Shown here piece by piece: positions 4,433-57,885 of a stretch of DNA of 64,000 nt (positions are counted from its first letter, which is position 1; each line of letters opens with the position of its first letter). The stretch spans positions 310,001 through 374,000 of the forward strand of contig NZ_AUMC01000010.1 of NCBI RefSeq assembly GCF_000443995.1. Direction: 5' to 3'. The notes under the pieces were generated by a model that ran no database searches, had not been told where the DNA came from, and saw only the letters and a list, made by a program, of their open reading frames with translations. The stretch is from Bacteriovorax sp. BAL6_X (GTDB lineage: Bacteria; Bdellovibrionota; Bacteriovoracia; Bacteriovoracales; Bacteriovoracaceae). A program made the translations under genes and the position numbers.

Positions 4433-4464
4433 TAGACACTATGTTCATTTTTTAGACACCATGT
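4433..4464 (+). promoter_or_regulatory. Tandem 12-bp direct repeats upstream of a sigma-54 promoter (possible activator sites)
   Basis: TAGACACTATGT at 4433-4444 and TAGACACCATGT at 4453-4464 match at 11 of 12 bases and start exactly 20 bases apart, about two helical turns. They lie 46-77 bases upstream of the -24 element at 4510, a typical position for bacterial enhancer-binding protein sites. The assignment to an activator is inference. Confidence 0.5.
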
Positions 4465-4509
4465 AATAATATAAGTTCATGAAATCATTGATGTTCTATA
4501 CCTGTTAGT

Positions 4510-4525
4510 TGGCACTATGATTGCA
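4510..4525 (+). promoter_or_regulatory. Sigma-54 (-24/-12) promoter
   Basis: TGGCAC (4510-4515), five bases, then TTGCA (4521-4525), with GG and GC ten bases apart as in the RpoN consensus TGGCAC-N5-TTGC. By the usual rule transcription would start near 4536, directly at the ATG (4537) of the 1535-residue secreted protein. I found no second match with this spacing in the window. Confidence 0.75.
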
Positions 4526-4536
4526 TCATACAGGGT

Positions 4537-7500
4537 ATGAAACTTCAAAAGCTAATCTCATTCATTATTATCTCTCTATGTTCATTCCAGATGGCTTTTG
4601 CTCAAACTATCGAAAATACAAGATCTGTGGCAAGCGTTTATGATCTGGCCGAAACTCTGGCCGAGCTAAAAGAAATTAAGAAGAATCTACGTGGTAGAGT
4701 TTCAAGCGATTTATCTGAAGAAGAGATGGCACAAATTGCACTGGGCCTGCAAGCTCAAAGCGCACAAGAGTCACAAGGTGAAGCGGAGTTTCAAACTGAG
4801 TTCATAACTTTTCTTGATTCGATTAAGAAGAATTCATGTGGTGTAAAGGATTATCAAGAAGAGCAAAAGCCGGTAGAAGCAAAGAAAGTTACAAGGGGAG
4901 ATAACCTTTTTTCTAGTATTGCTGCAGTTATTGCTGAAGTTAAAGTTGATGAAAAACTAAATCGTAAACAAAATAGAAAAATCGACACTTTATCGGCCCA
5001 AGTTCTAAAGTATTTTTCAAGAGCTAAATCTCTAAAGTCTAAGGTTGAGAATATTATCAATAATACAAATGAAGCTTATGCAGATAAAGAAGAATTACTT
5101 CTGGCCTTCAATGATTCTATTGTTAAAGGCCTTTATGATATTAAAGTAATTCTTTCTCCATTTAGAAATATGTCTGCAATTAACATGAATGAAATTCTTC
5201 CAAAGCTTACGACGGACTTTATCGAAGAGGATACTGAATTATATAACTTTCTTATTCACGGTGAAATGAAGGATAAAATTTTCTTTACAGTGAATATTGA
5301 TGGAAGTGATGTTGAGTTAAAACTTAATACATTCCTAAACTCCAAGAGAAATGTTGTTACAATTAATGAATCACCAAGTGCAAAGAACTATCTGCGTGCA
5401 CTTAGAATTCTAACGATTCAAATGATGGCAACTCAAATTAAAAACTATGATCTAATGATCGAGTCTAAAGAAGATAAGATTGTAATTCCAAAAAGCTGTC
5501 GTAGTGAGTTAAATGGCTCATGGCCACACCTTTTAGAGCTTAAAGTAGATGAGTCTGTTGCAAAGACATATCTAGATAATCTTATTAAGAATTCTGGGCT
5601 TTCATATGATGAAGGAAGTCTAGAGCTTATGAGTGTTAGAGAAGCGCAGGAGCTAAACCCTCTAGCTGAGACAATGGTTTCTTCAACTTCTGTTGAGAAC
5701 TTTCTAAGAGCGGCAAAGGGTAAGGAAGGAACTAATTTCTACCAAAAGTTTCTAAAGGCCGGTTTTGATGAAGTCAATGCTTATAATAAATTTGTTGATA
5801 TGAAGATGGGTGAAGTTGCTCAGGCTTATAAGAAGAATATCTACTCTTATGAGAGAGGATCAAGATCAAGAAAGTCTAAAGAGGTAACAACTAAGGATAT
5901 CGCTCTTATAAATGATATCATTGCCGTTGTTCCAGAATCAAAAACAATAGAAGTTGATATTTATGAAGGTGATCAGAAGTATGTTGAAAATATATATCCT
6001 TCAGCAATTAATGTTTCTCCGTACCTCGCATCTAAAATGGCCCAGGCCCGAACAGAAAATTTAGAAGATATCATTAGTGACTCAATTAAAAATGAGCTTA
6101 AGAATAATAGAGTTGTTATTGAATTTCCATCTTTATACTCTCAAGAAGCTTACCGTAACTGGGGACTTAATACTCTTTATCAAAAGGCACTAGATCTTCA
6201 AGATGAAGAAGAGTTTAAAGTAGGTTCACGTCACAATAATATGCTATTTGGTTTTTGTTATAGAAACCCAGCTCAGCTTTGTAAGGGACTATCAAGAAAA
6301 TCAAATGTACTTAAAAGAGTTGTAAGTTATATCGATTCTCTAAAGATTGATGGAAAATTTATTCCTGTTGCTCGTTTGGATAAAACAAAGGTTAAGGAGA
6401 GTTATGTAACTCTTGCAAAGGTATTTGATTACCTAAGAACGGGGCCAAAAGCTTTTCCTGAGCTAGTAACAAATGAGTACGATTACTTATTAGATCAAAT
6501 GCAGGCGCTAAATCCTCTTGCAAAAGTGAGACTTGGCTATCTTGTCGCTCGTGAGGAGCTTAAAAATATTCGAGATGGTCGAGTTAAGACATATAAGAAA
6601 ACTTCTCGTGGAATGAGAGTTGATTATAGCTATAAGTGTTTTAATAATAATATGAATGCTTATCTTGAAAATCTTGAAGAGGCCGCAGAGATCCTTAAAG
6701 TTAACCGTAGTATCAGACCTAACTTTCTTACAAGTGAATTAAATAAAGATGAGTATAAAAGACTATGGAATACAATCTTTGATGAGTTTAATAAAGATAC
6801 GACTCAAATTATGACTGCAGAGCTTAACACTGGTAAGAAAGCTTTTGAGTTAATTGATTCTCTATCGAATAAAGTAACTCTAGAACGTAATCAAATTGAA
6901 GATGCTGCAAATGAAGCAATTGAAGGTCGTCTACTTTATCAAACAGCAGAAGATATTAGCGCTCGTCTACAAGAAGAAGATGTTGAAAAAATCGCTTTTT
7001 ATAAAGAGATTTTAGCAGCTAAGTCACATACTGAAAGAGCTGCAATTTTTGATTCTCGTCCAGCTAGCATTGATATCTTTGATGACTATGATTTAGTACA
7101 TAACTTCCTAAAGCTAAATATGGATCTTAAGACTCCAGTATATAAAGAGATTTTAAAGAGATCAGCTCTTAAGCGTCAGCAAGATACTTATAAGAAGATG
7201 AATAAATTCTGCCAAATTGATGAAGACGATATTGATAGTCTTAAAGAGAACTTCTTTGCAACTGTTAAGATTCAAGATCAGCTAAATCAGCTTCTTGGAA
7301 TTCCTGCTGTTCCAAAAGAATTAATGGATAGAATGGATGATTGGAATAGCGATGAAAAATGGGCCATGTTTAATGGTGTATTTGGCTTCCTTCTTGGTAT
7401 GGGAGCTGTTCTAGCAGCTGGTTCATGTACAATAGTTACTGGTGGACTATGTGGTCTTGCTATCGCTGGGGCCGGGGCCGTCGGATTTGGTATGCAAGCA

Positions 7501-9144
7501 AATGCAATTCGCTTAGAAACAAAAGTAAAGTTCCGTGCTGATAGAAGTGAAGAATATGTAGGTGAAATGGCCGATCTTGGTTTCACTGATTCAAACTCAA
7601 CTGAGAATGTTGCAAGAGGGTGGATGGCCGTAGCATTTGAAGTTATTGGAACAATCTCAATGATTTCAATCCTGACAAGAAGTGTTTCAGTTGGTTCAAA
7701 AATCTTCAAAGAATCACTGAAGGCCATTGTTAAGAATCGTTCCCAACTAGGAATTAAAGAAGCTTTAAAGCAGTCGGGGAAAGATGCTTCTGTTATCGTA
7801 AATGAATCAGAAGTTGAATTTGCAAAGCTAGTTCTAGGACTAAAAAAATATAGTGATGTATTCAAGAAAATGCTTTCTTCTAAGTCGATGGATGATATCG
7901 CTGAGAATTTAAGAAACCTAGATTTAGATGAAGAGTTCGTTGAGAAAACTCTTAAGAAAATGGATCGTATTGAAGCTAATTATACAGCTGGAAAGCTATC
8001 TCAGACGAGTTATAACAAAGCAATTAAGAATATTGTTGCAAGTGTTGAAGAAGCAATTACTCGCTCTCATGGTGGAATCTATCGTTATACAAGTGATGTT
8101 GCTGTTAACTTAAATTACTCTCAAGTAGATGAGGCCCTGGGAAATACTGTTTCAAAACTTTTTAATGGAAGCCCACTGGAGCTAAGACACTATATGGGTA
8201 GCTATGTGAAAAGACTTAATGCTTCTAAACTAAATAATTCTTCAAAAGCTGCACGTTCAAAACTGAGAGTGAGAAAAGCAGACCAAGGTCAATATATGAC
8301 AGGAACTAATTGGATCGTTCGTGCTTGGAATGAGAATACTGCAAACCTTGCTAAGAACCGTCGTCAGTTCCTTAAAATTTATGATGAGCTACAAAGACTT
8401 CCGGAAGCAGAATTAGCTGACTATATTGCTAAGAATGCAGATATATTAACTGAGATTTTTGTGAAGATTCCTTTAAGAAAGAGAGACTTTCCATATATGC
8501 TAATTCAAGGAGCACCTCATACTGGTGGCTTTTTTGGAAGAAGACTTCCTGTCATCTCTGCTGTCGGCGAAGGCGTACTAATGAGAAAGATATTTACTGC
8601 ACGCGCAAGACTTATCTCTGAAGTAGCACGTCGCTCAGCTCGTGAAACTCTTGGAATGAAGAAAGTTCTTATGGCCGAGACTGTAGGCGACCTTTACCGT
8701 GGACTTGAAGTATCTGCTCTTGAGGCGCTCCCAAAGATGACTAAGAAGGAAGTTGCTGAAGTTGAATCAATGATTGCTACTGTAAAAGAGAAGGCAATTT
8801 CAGGTATTATTAGAAATTTAGAAAGTGATCGTACTACCGTTAAGTTTATGAATAAGTACGGTGTAAGCTTTGATGGCCTTACTCCTGATCAAACATATAC
8901 AGAGCTAAATAGAATTCTTTATTCTCCAAATGGGACTATTGAAAACACTCTTTCTCGCTATCTGTGGGCAAGTGCTGATGTTGAAGGACTATTTAAGGCC
9001 CCTGAATTTTCAGGTTTAGCTTATAAAGTTATGAGAGACACAATTGAAAAAGATAATATTGGAAGTTTACAACGCTACCTAAATGCTCTCAAAGTACTAC
9101 AAATTAAGGACAATGGAACACTTGGTAGCGTCGAAATTTTTTAG
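4537..9144 (+). CDS. Giant secreted protein (1535 aa), unknown function
   Basis: The N-terminus MKLQKLISFIIISLCSFQ continues to an AFAQ cleavage site, so the protein is exported. Most of the chain is charged, Lys/Glu-rich and predicted helical. Two Gly/Ala-rich hydrophobic segments lie near residues 941-995 (with two Cys in GSCTIVTGGLCG) and 1027-1055 and could insert in a membrane. There are further scattered Cys but no catalytic motif I recognise. The ATG has only a GGG one base upstream, so there is no usable ribosome site. Together with the predicted start at 4536 this suggests a leaderless mRNA. Expression is probably sigma-54 dependent and conditional. It ends one base before the stop of the convergent gene at 9146. 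Size, helicity and export suggest a structural or host-directed factor, but this is conjecture. Confidence 0.8.
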   Translation: MKLQKLISFIIISLCSFQMAFAQTIENTRSVASVYDLAETLAELKEIKKNLRGRVSSDLSEEEMAQIALGLQAQSAQESQGEAEFQTEFITFLDSIKKNSCGVKDYQEEQKPVEAKKVTRGDNLFSSIAAVIAEVKVDEKLNRKQNRKIDTLSAQVLKYFSRAKSLKSKVENIINNTNEAYADKEELLLAFNDSIVKGLYDIKVILSPFRNMSAINMNEILPKLTTDFIEEDTELYNFLIHGEMKDKIFFTVNIDGSDVELKLNTFLNSKRNVVTINESPSAKNYLRALRILTIQMMATQIKNYDLMIESKEDKIVIPKSCRSELNGSWPHLLELKVDESVAKTYLDNLIKNSGLSYDEGSLELMSVREAQELNPLAETMVSSTSVENFLRAAKGKEGTNFYQKFLKAGFDEVNAYNKFVDMKMGEVAQAYKKNIYSYERGSRSRKSKEVTTKDIALINDIIAVVPESKTIEVDIYEGDQKYVENIYPSAINVSPYLASKMAQARTENLEDIISDSIKNELKNNRVVIEFPSLYSQEAYRNWGLNTLYQKALDLQDEEEFKVGSRHNNMLFGFCYRNPAQLCKGLSRKSNVLKRVVSYIDSLKIDGKFIPVARLDKTKVKESYVTLAKVFDYLRTGPKAFPELVTNEYDYLLDQMQALNPLAKVRLGYLVAREELKNIRDGRVKTYKKTSRGMRVDYSYKCFNNNMNAYLENLEEAAEILKVNRSIRPNFLTSELNKDEYKRLWNTIFDEFNKDTTQIMTAELNTGKKAFELIDSLSNKVTLERNQIEDAANEAIEGRLLYQTAEDISARLQEEDVEKIAFYKEILAAKSHTERAAIFDSRPASIDIFDDYDLVHNFLKLNMDLKTPVYKEILKRSALKRQQDTYKKMNKFCQIDEDDIDSLKENFFATVKIQDQLNQLLGIPAVPKELMDRMDDWNSDEKWAMFNGVFGFLLGMGAVLAAGSCTIVTGGLCGLAIAGAGAVGFGMQANAIRLETKVKFRADRSEEYVGEMADLGFTDSNSTENVARGWMAVAFEVIGTISMISILTRSVSVGSKIFKESLKAIVKNRSQLGIKEALKQSGKDASVIVNESEVEFAKLVLGLKKYSDVFKKMLSSKSMDDIAENLRNLDLDEEFVEKTLKKMDRIEANYTAGKLSQTSYNKAIKNIVASVEEAITRSHGGIYRYTSDVAVNLNYSQVDEALGNTVSKLFNGSPLELRHYMGSYVKRLNASKLNNSSKAARSKLRVRKADQGQYMTGTNWIVRAWNENTANLAKNRRQFLKIYDELQRLPEAELADYIAKNADILTEIFVKIPLRKRDFPYMLIQGAPHTGGFFGRRLPVISAVGEGVLMRKIFTARARLISEVARRSARETLGMKKVLMAETVGDLYRGLEVSALEALPKMTKKEVAEVESMIATVKEKAISGIIRNLESDRTTVKFMNKYGVSFDGLTPDQTYTELNRILYSPNGTIENTLSRYLWASADVEGLFKAPEFSGLAYKVMRDTIEKDNIGSLQRYLNALKVLQIKDNGTLGSVEIF

Positions 9145-41280: not shown

Positions 41281-41426
41281 CTTTTCGATCCTTTAATATT
41301 TGTTTGGCGGTTGAAACATTAATTTTCTTATTCATACTCTCGTCTCGTTAAAGAGTAAAGCTAGTGTGAAATTTTGATTGATACACACTAAAAAAAGCTT
41401 AATAACCTGATGTTTTTACTAAAGTT

Positions 41427-42971
41427 ATGACAATTTTTGCCGATAAGCCCATTCCTATGGAGCAGTTCTTAAACAATTTCCTATTAGGAGCATCAATCTT
41501 ACTACTCTTAAGCATTGTGCTCAGCAAGTCCTCAAGCCGCTTTGGTTTGCCAGTTCTTGTGCTTTTCCTCTTCATCGGGATGATGGCCGGATCAGATGGA
41601 ATTGGGGGAATTAATTTTAGTAATTATGAGCTAACTCATTCTTTAAGCCTAGTTGCTCTATGCCTAATTATTTTCAACGGGGGATTTGAAACTCCATTTA
41701 ACAAAGTAAAAAAAGACTTTGGAAGAGGAGTCGTTCTTTCTTCAATCGGAGTTATGCTCACTACTTTCTTAGTCGGTGGCTTTACTCATCTTGTAACAGA
41801 CTTAGGCTTACTTGAATCCTTGCTTATCGGCGCCATTCTTTCGGCAACTGATGCTGCAGCTGTTTTCTCTGCATTTAAAGATCCAACTGCACAAGTTGGT
41901 GATGTTAAAAATATTCTTCGTTTTGAATCGGGGAGTAATGATCCTATGGCCTACTTTCTTGTCTCTGTCATCATTGGCTTCATTGAGCAAGGAATGGGAG
42001 ATGTCAAAACGACGGCAATCATGTTTATCTCAAATCCTATTATTGGTCTAATTGGTGGTTGGGTAACTGCTCACTCATTCATCTTAATCAATAATGTAGT
42101 AAAACTAGATTTTAATGGACTCTACCCACCTCTTACAATGGCCATGTTATTTCTTGGCTATTCTTTAACAACAAAGCTTGGCGGAAATGGTTTCTTAGCA
42201 GTTTATGTTTTTGGGATGATGATCGGAAATCGTAAAATTCTTCATAAGAATTTACTTTCCCTATTCTTTGATGGCGTAACTTGGCTTTCCCAAATTGGTC
42301 TCTTCATTATGTTAGGTTTACTAGTCTTTCCAAATCGACTCCTTACAGTTGCGCCGGCAGGACTTTTCATTGCTTGTTTCTTAACATTTGCAGCAAGGCC
42401 AATTACTGTCTTCCTATGTTTAGTTAAGAGTCGTTTCAATTTAAATGAAAAACTCTTTATTTCATGGGCCGGACTCAAAGGGGCAACACCAATTGTCTTT
42501 GCTAGTTTTGCAGCAACTCACATTGGAGAAAAGGCCCATGTCTTATTTGATATTGTGTTCTTTGTTGTGATTATTTCAGCTCTTATGCAGGGATCAACCC
42601 TAAAATTTATTGCTAGGAAACTAGGACTTATTGTTGAACAAGAAGATGAAGTAAACTTTCCTGTTGATATGGAACTTCTCGAACAAACCAAGCATGGAAT
42701 TGTTCAACTTGAACTTAAGCAATCTGATTATGCTGTTGAAAATAGAGTAGTTGACCTAGGATTACCAGTTGGGGCAATCGTTTTATTTATCAAGCGACAT
42801 GGGGCATTCATTATTCCGGATGGAGCTACAGTTTTTGAAAAAGGGGATAAAATTCTTTTAGTAACTAAACTAAAAGAGGACCTAGAAGCAGCACAAGAGT
42901 GTTTTGAAAAAAAAAAGATTGAAGAATTAGATGAAGAAGATGATGATACACAAGAGTTACATGCAGCCTAA
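41427..42971 (+). CDS. CPA1-family cation/proton antiporter (NhaP2/CvrA-like)
   Basis: Encodes 514 residues. About twelve helices fill residues 15-395. The ion site shows SATDAAAVFSAF and ESGSNDPMAYFL. The Asn-Asp pair of the latter is the electroneutral CPA1 signature. A cytoplasmic tail (about 415-495) looks like a TrkA-C/RCK-C domain, as in NhaP2/CvrA, ending in an acidic run. It would exchange K+ or Na+ for H+ and help control volume and pH. An ATG ten codons further in (41457) is an alternative start; neither has a good ribosome site. Confidence 0.9.
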   Translation: MTIFADKPIPMEQFLNNFLLGASILLLLSIVLSKSSSRFGLPVLVLFLFIGMMAGSDGIGGINFSNYELTHSLSLVALCLIIFNGGFETPFNKVKKDFGRGVVLSSIGVMLTTFLVGGFTHLVTDLGLLESLLIGAILSATDAAAVFSAFKDPTAQVGDVKNILRFESGSNDPMAYFLVSVIIGFIEQGMGDVKTTAIMFISNPIIGLIGGWVTAHSFILINNVVKLDFNGLYPPLTMAMLFLGYSLTTKLGGNGFLAVYVFGMMIGNRKILHKNLLSLFFDGVTWLSQIGLFIMLGLLVFPNRLLTVAPAGLFIACFLTFAARPITVFLCLVKSRFNLNEKLFISWAGLKGATPIVFASFAATHIGEKAHVLFDIVFFVVIISALMQGSTLKFIARKLGLIVEQEDEVNFPVDMELLEQTKHGIVQLELKQSDYAVENRVVDLGLPVGAIVLFIKRHGAFIIPDGATVFEKGDKILLVTKLKEDLEAAQECFEKKKIEELDEEDDDTQELHAA

Positions 42972-57254: not shown

Positions 57255-57761
57255 TCAACTCATTGAATTGTCGAAAAGTGTCCGCGTACCACCCTCATGA
57301 TTTAGAAGGGCCTCTTTAATATCTGCTCCGGCTACGTAACCCGAGAGTTCTCCAGACTTTGCGATGACACGGTGACAAGGAATGATTAAACAAATTGGAT
57401 TTTTGGCATTAGCACTTCCCACTGCTTGCACAGCCTTAGGTGAGCCAACCTTTTGAGCAATATCAGAATATGTCGTCACTTCACCATAAGGAATATTGAG
57501 AAGCTGCGCCCAAACTTGTTTTTGGAAGACCGTTCCCTTGTTGATACTTAATGGAATCGAAAACTTTTTACGGCTTCCTGCAAAGTATTCTTCGAGTTGA
57601 TCGTGGGCCTCATTGAGATATTTAGCGATACGCTCATCATCCTCATAGTGAGGACCGTCGTATTCTTGATCTTCCCAGCCAAGATAAGAAACTCCATTTT
57701 CATTAGCACAAATATAAATTGTGCCAAATTTTGAATGAAACTCAATTTGTCTATCAGTCAT
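57255..57761 (-). CDS. ogt: Methylated-DNA--protein-cysteine methyltransferase
   Basis: Encodes 168 residues. The active-site motif IIPCHRVI (Cys129) takes the alkyl group from O6-methylguanine in a suicidal repair reaction. The helix-turn-helix GEVTTYSDIAQKVGSPKAVQ and the Asn-containing VGSANAKNP loop are in place. It lacks the Ada regulatory N-terminus, so it is Ogt-type. Confidence 0.95.
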   Translation of the reverse strand: MTDRQIEFHSKFGTIYICANENGVSYLGWEDQEYDGPHYEDDERIAKYLNEAHDQLEEYFAGSRKKFSIPLSINKGTVFQKQVWAQLLNIPYGEVTTYSDIAQKVGSPKAVQAVGSANAKNPICLIIPCHRVIAKSGELSGYVAGADIKEALLNHEGGTRTLFDNSMS

Positions 57762-57885
57762 GTGGCAATTATAGCACCTTCAAATCTTAAAAAGAACTTA
57801 TGATTAAGTAATCTATTTTGAAGTTTATTGCGTATATATAATTAAGAGAGCTAAAATTAACTAATTTTAAATTTCTGGAGGAAGT

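Follow-up and report, generated by a model that had tools for sequence, protein, structure and literature searches.

The question at this locus was how a giant exported protein is switched on and translated when its start codon lies next to a promoter box and has no usable ribosome site. The window, meaning the whole 64-kb stretch of DNA that was analysed, had been interpreted earlier by a sequence-only reading. This reading proposed a sigma-54 promoter with a phased pair of upstream activator sites and a leaderless start. We compared these elements with the rest of the genome, with orthologues and with other promoters of the same type. The features discussed below were as follows.

4433..4444, + strand: upstream half-site 1, TAGACACTATGT, at roughly -104 to -93 relative to the predicted start, with the TAGACA/TGTCTA motif that is enriched at sigma-54 boxes
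4442..4458, no strand assigned: degenerate copy of the palindrome TGTCTAAnnnTTAGACA, here TGTTCATTTTTTAGACA; the left arm is degenerate, and relatives carry the intact form or half-sites
4453..4464, + strand: upstream half-site 2, TAGACACCATGT, about -84 to -73 from the predicted start, with the same enriched motif
4510..4525, + strand: sigma-54 -24/-12 promoter TGGCAC-TATGA-TTGCA, exact consensus, conserved in orthologues
4537, + strand: predicted transcription start, the A of the ATG, at the C of the -12 element + 13; placed from sister promoters, with the leaderless peak at the same place
4537..9144, + strand: gene of an exported, mostly helical 1535-aa protein without a Shine-Dalgarno sequence, from the ORF and its signal peptide

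The promoter box and the giant gene

The box TGGCAC-N5-TTGCA had been placed at 4510-4525, and this was exact. TGGCACTATGATTGCA showed zero mismatches to the -24/-12 consensus, with standard spacing of GG and GC. It was the sole perfect TGGCAC-N5-TTGC in the 64-kb window, where base composition predicted 0.05. Genome-wide (3.23 Mb), 15 perfect sites were found, compared to about 2.5 expected from composition and 1 with the reversed pattern. The genome carried one rpoN and four activators of the GAFTGA type (GAFTGA loop). These results indicated that 4510-4525 is a genuine sigma-54 promoter.

The gene behind the box was also as described. ORF 4537-9144 encoded the 1535-residue exported protein, with a clear N-terminal signal peptide, MKLQKLISFIIISLCSFQMAFA-Q. 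The ATG at 4537 had no usable ribosome site; the stretch upstream held just AGGG, one base before the ATG. A ribosome site was present for 39 of 50 window genes of at least 150 aa by a simple duplex-energy rule. In the case of the giant-protein gene, the rule chose an internal start, and a ribosome site was absent there too. The downstream start ATG 4591 (MAFAQ) was rejected because the signal peptide shared by the orthologues would be lost. The protein matched no Pfam or NCBIfam family, and PDB profiles gave one stray match (E 0.015). Two parts were modelled with AlphaFold; both models were of low confidence (mean pLDDT 64 and 72), and a fold search against the PDB returned no match below E = 0.2.

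Within the family Bacteriovoracaceae, 52 of 129 genomes carried the gene, including those of Bacteriovorax sp. MedPE-SWde and DB6_IX, of the same genus, and a Halobacteriovorax marinus record. The window organism is a marine relative of the predatory Bdellovibrio and, by analogy with its relatives, presumably a predator. The sequence-only reading had proposed a search for the box and the repeats upstream of orthologues. The box was kept before all 26 orthologues with readable upstream DNA outside one lipoprotein-type clade, and each box was matched or beaten in no more than 2 of 200 shuffles. Variants were TGGCCC, TGGCAT, TGGCCT and similar, with A as the first base in two, and the box was retained even where protein identity fell to 24-28%. 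In the lipoprotein-type clade it was found before 0 of 11 readable orthologues. In this clade (L057, L060, L061, L063-L068, L070, L080), the giant protein carries a lipoprotein-type signal, and its gene lacks a sigma-54 box.

Distances from the box to the start codon

The giant gene had been taken as a single exported protein under sigma-54 control. This was not the case. The looser pattern TGGCN7TTGC occurred 87 times in the genome, 58 times inside ORFs and 29 times between genes, and about 20 of the 29 intergenic sites were followed by a gene with a signal-like N-terminus. From sequence, the giant-protein gene is one member of a sigma-54 group that encodes mostly exported proteins, and part of this group would have the start codon at +1.

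We defined d as the number of bases from the C of the -12 element to the start codon. Five exported-protein genes of the window organism's genome had d values of 12, 12, 13, 13 and 14, and the next values were at least 22. Five other species of the genus gave a peak of ATGs at d = 12 (12 of 104 hits; p=1.4e-4 against a uniform distribution). In the same 104 hits, 28 ATGs lay at d = 10-14, followed by a trough with 6 at 15-21, and they were common again from 22. When cases with d = 10-14 were fetched, those at 12-14 were mostly real exported-protein genes, and ATGs at 10-11 were mostly false. In the combined set, start codons lay either 12-14 nt or at least 21 nt after the GC; this set gives no proportions because fetching favoured short d. 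The short-d class consisted of 20 exported-protein genes at 12-14 and one doubtful gene at d = 10.

The two classes differed in their ribosome sites. A Shine-Dalgarno core was found in 0 of 21 short-d genes vs 27 of 34 long-d genes, a lack that geometry partly imposes on the short-d class. The median duplex energy was +1.3 and -6.6 kcal/mol, respectively (p = 7e-9). The start codon was ATG in the window gene and in nearly the whole short-d class, with GTG in L008. Among the 34 long-d promoters, 26 had an A at C+13, usually preceded by a pyrimidine (p = 2.5e-5; 20 positions were compared). This A is likely the +1 of the long-d promoters. In the short-d genes with d = 12, the C+13 base is the A of the ATG itself. 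By the same measure, the +1 of the window gene would be 4537, the A of its ATG. The earlier placement of the start next to the ATG was consistent with this, and its position, 4536, was corrected by one base.

A sigma-54 promoter with a leader of a few bases, translated by ordinary 30S binding without a Shine-Dalgarno sequence, would look much the same and would not be strictly leaderless. Sigma-54 start points can shift by a few bases, and the spread of the class, 12-14 nt in the present set and 13-18 nt in an outgroup genome, is what this reading would expect. However, the mode was one base wide, with d exactly 12 in 14 of 20 short-d genes, and it matched the A conserved in promoters with leaders. 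We consider a short leader rather improbable for this reason.

The layout was also seen outside the genus. In five other genera, d = 12-15 was found in about 14 of 20 fetched stretches, and the A peak in the orthologue leaders was at +14 (13 of 22). One orthologue group kept short d across three genera (14, 12, 14, 13, 14) and a second kept it within the genus (14, 12, 12, 13). Long-d groups remained mostly long (e.g. 49, 49, 51). The genome G038, of another family of the phylum, gave 68 matches of a sigma-54 box followed by an ATG in 2 Mb. Its starts (L264-L283) clustered 14-18 nt after the GC, and signal-peptide genes made up about two thirds of those fetched. In that lineage, sigma-54 seems to be in heavy use, and leaders seem to be very short or absent.

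In the case of the giant-protein gene itself, d was 12, 12 and 12 in three genus members (the window organism, G002 and G005), 25, 26 and 26 in the remaining three, and 25-48 in other genera. The orthologues with leaders had roughly 12-35 nt, and most had a ribosome site. Since most orthologues have leaders, leaderlessness is not needed for the function of this gene. Thus, the proposed leaderless geometry recurred in many genes, but this particular gene showed it in just 3 of 6 genus members. The sigma-54 core, the activator sites and the leaderless start had been counted as three independent signs. They are not fully independent, because leaderlessness follows from the position of the box.

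The upstream motif

The two 12-bp repeats described upstream of the box were real. TAGACAC(T/C)ATGT was found at 4433 and 4453, 11/12 identical and 20 bases apart, and when the intergenic stretch was shuffled 500 times, an equally good pair appeared 5 times. Their interpretation as a phased activator pair held in part. The motif was enriched upstream of many sigma-54 boxes, but the repeats were half-sites of a 17-bp palindrome and no special phased pair. The palindrome TGTCTAAnnnTTAGACA was better kept in relatives, and the window copy amounted to two half-sites in the same direction. In many orthologues, TGTCTAAnnnTTAGACA or one half was found 45-106 nt upstream of the box.

Unbiased counting upstream of 55 sigma-54 boxes of the genus gave GTCTAA/TTAGAC and TAGACA/TGTCTA as the top 6-mers. 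The motif was found at 25 of 55 boxes, compared to a shuffle mean of 4.0 and a maximum of 11. It was counted in the fetched upstream stretches, which replaced a fixed-gap pattern, TAGACA-N20-50-box, that missed the window because the gap there is 51. The TTAGACA-type motif lay mostly 44-96 nt from the box, upstream of unrelated exported-protein genes. These results suggested candidate activator sites in the upstream zone expected for them, about 80-150 nt, with an enriched and partly conserved motif and a degenerate palindrome in the window.

The promoter may be real and the repeats may still be unrelated repressor sites or mobile-element remnants. The motif does occur away from sigma-54 boxes too. 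However, it was the top 6-mer at the boxes of unrelated exported-protein genes, and its distance of mostly 44-96 nt is the usual zone of enhancer sites. We regard repressor sites or remnants as unlikely, and activator binding is preferred.

The full palindrome was rejected as a genome-wide marker. With at most 2 mismatches in the own genome, TGTCTAAnnnTTAGACA was counted 18 times vs 23 for the reversed control. A link of the motif to one particular activator had a weak hint only, a TAGACA located 84 nt upstream of the ORF of the activator L227. A second motif, ACCACC, was observed upstream of 7 of 55 sigma-54 boxes vs 1.0 in shuffles (L127, L184, L187, L191, L200, L210). It is perhaps the site of another activator.

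The proposed scheme and related systems

In the proposed scheme, an enhancer-binding protein would bind the TTAGACA half-sites or the TGTCTAAnnnTTAGACA palindrome about 50-100 nt upstream. The bound activator would trigger opening by the RpoN polymerase at 4510-4525, and the polymerase would initiate at 4537 or one base to either side. With a start at about 4537, the message would have the AUG of the exported-protein gene at its very 5' end, and it would be translated as a leaderless mRNA. Conservation of the box, enrichment of the motif, the bimodal distances and the lack of a Shine-Dalgarno sequence came from comparison; from these we infer the exact start, binding by one activator and the leaderless translation. 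Use in a defined life-cycle phase, as suggested by the sequence-only reading, would be a guess. We consider the scheme as a whole, from the activator-driven promoter to the leaderless message, quite probable. Transcription from some other upstream promoter, with the sigma-54 site decayed or accidental, is very unlikely: AT-rich intergenic DNA always yields sigma-70-like matches, but a sigma-70 scan gave no + strand site between 4383 and 4537, and the box was kept even in distant orthologues.

The scheme was compared with known systems. A survey that accepted start distances of -50 to 300 nt has tied sigma-54 promoters to envelope biosynthesis genes (Francke et al. 2011, PMC3162934). The association with envelope or surface functions is like that seen here, whereas the words leaderless and Bdellovibrio are absent from its main text. 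Leaderless genes with a -10 box beside the start codon have been detected from sequence (Zheng et al. 2011, PMC3160421; Deinococcus-Thermus, PMC12340547), and 8 of 33 delta-Proteobacteria genomes contained genes of this kind (PMC3160421). In these genes, as here, the promoter sets the start codon at about +1. However, their boxes were sigma-70 -10 boxes, and those described here are of the activator-needing sigma-54 type and the FliA type. The 2011 method searched for Pribnow boxes only (Zheng et al. 2011, PMC3160421).

Streptomyces whiH, as cited in PMC3160421, combines a FliA-type alternative sigma factor (a sigma-WhiG -10 box) with a leaderless message. It is a single gene in an unrelated organism and not sigma-54. 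In Bdellovibrio bacteriovorus, a predatory relative, the FliA attack-phase programme (PMC3627812) also places an alternative sigma factor on surface and secreted proteins. In contrast, that factor is sigma-28 with mapped 5' ends, and the passages considered contained no sigma-54 or leaderless class. In the literature searched, nothing relevant on Bdellovibrio and leaderless messages was found by title and abstract. Searches for sigma54 and leaderless returned mainly transcript maps of other bacteria, of which one, the Sinorhizobium map, was checked for the class, and no description of a sigma-54 leaderless class was found in this mostly open-access literature.

Leaderless bacterial messages have so far been catalogued mainly behind sigma-70 -10 boxes. 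The present class would be a recurrent leaderless class at sigma-54 promoters, which depend on an activator. It is biased towards exported proteins in presumed predators, and it would couple a tight transcriptional switch to a different mode of translation start. From these sequences, the switching-on and the ribosome-site-free translation of such exported-protein genes seem to be wired together. The class yields a testable gene list with a one-base prediction of 5' ends. It also points to proteins that share a promoter type and are candidates for surface or secreted proteins, in a group whose gene regulation is little studied. A more tentative extension is that in Bacteriovoracales many exported-protein genes under sigma-54 and FliA promoters have the start codon itself as their +1 and form stage-specific leaderless regulons. 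Such messages might be selectively translatable, e.g. by 70S monosomes under limiting initiation factors, for instance around prey entry. We regard this extension as possible but doubtful.

FliA-type boxes were searched in three genomes with the pattern TWAAG-N14-17-CCGATA. The ATG lay exactly 8 nt after CCGATA in 16 of 76 cases, a sharper peak than that of sigma-54. Therefore, the leaderless layout is not peculiar to sigma-54 in these bacteria. In the window, a FliA-type promoter, TAAAG-N15-CCGATAAG, was observed at 41420-41459 (+ strand) before an NhaP2-like antiporter gene, with the ATG at 41457, 11 nt after CCGATA. In the G003 orthologue of this gene (L291), the ATG lay 8 nt after CCGATA, and the case is part of the genus-wide peak at this distance. 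In addition, a candidate sigma-70 leaderless gene was observed at 57745-57800 (- strand), where TATAAT is followed after 6 nt by the ATG of an ORF ending near 57258.
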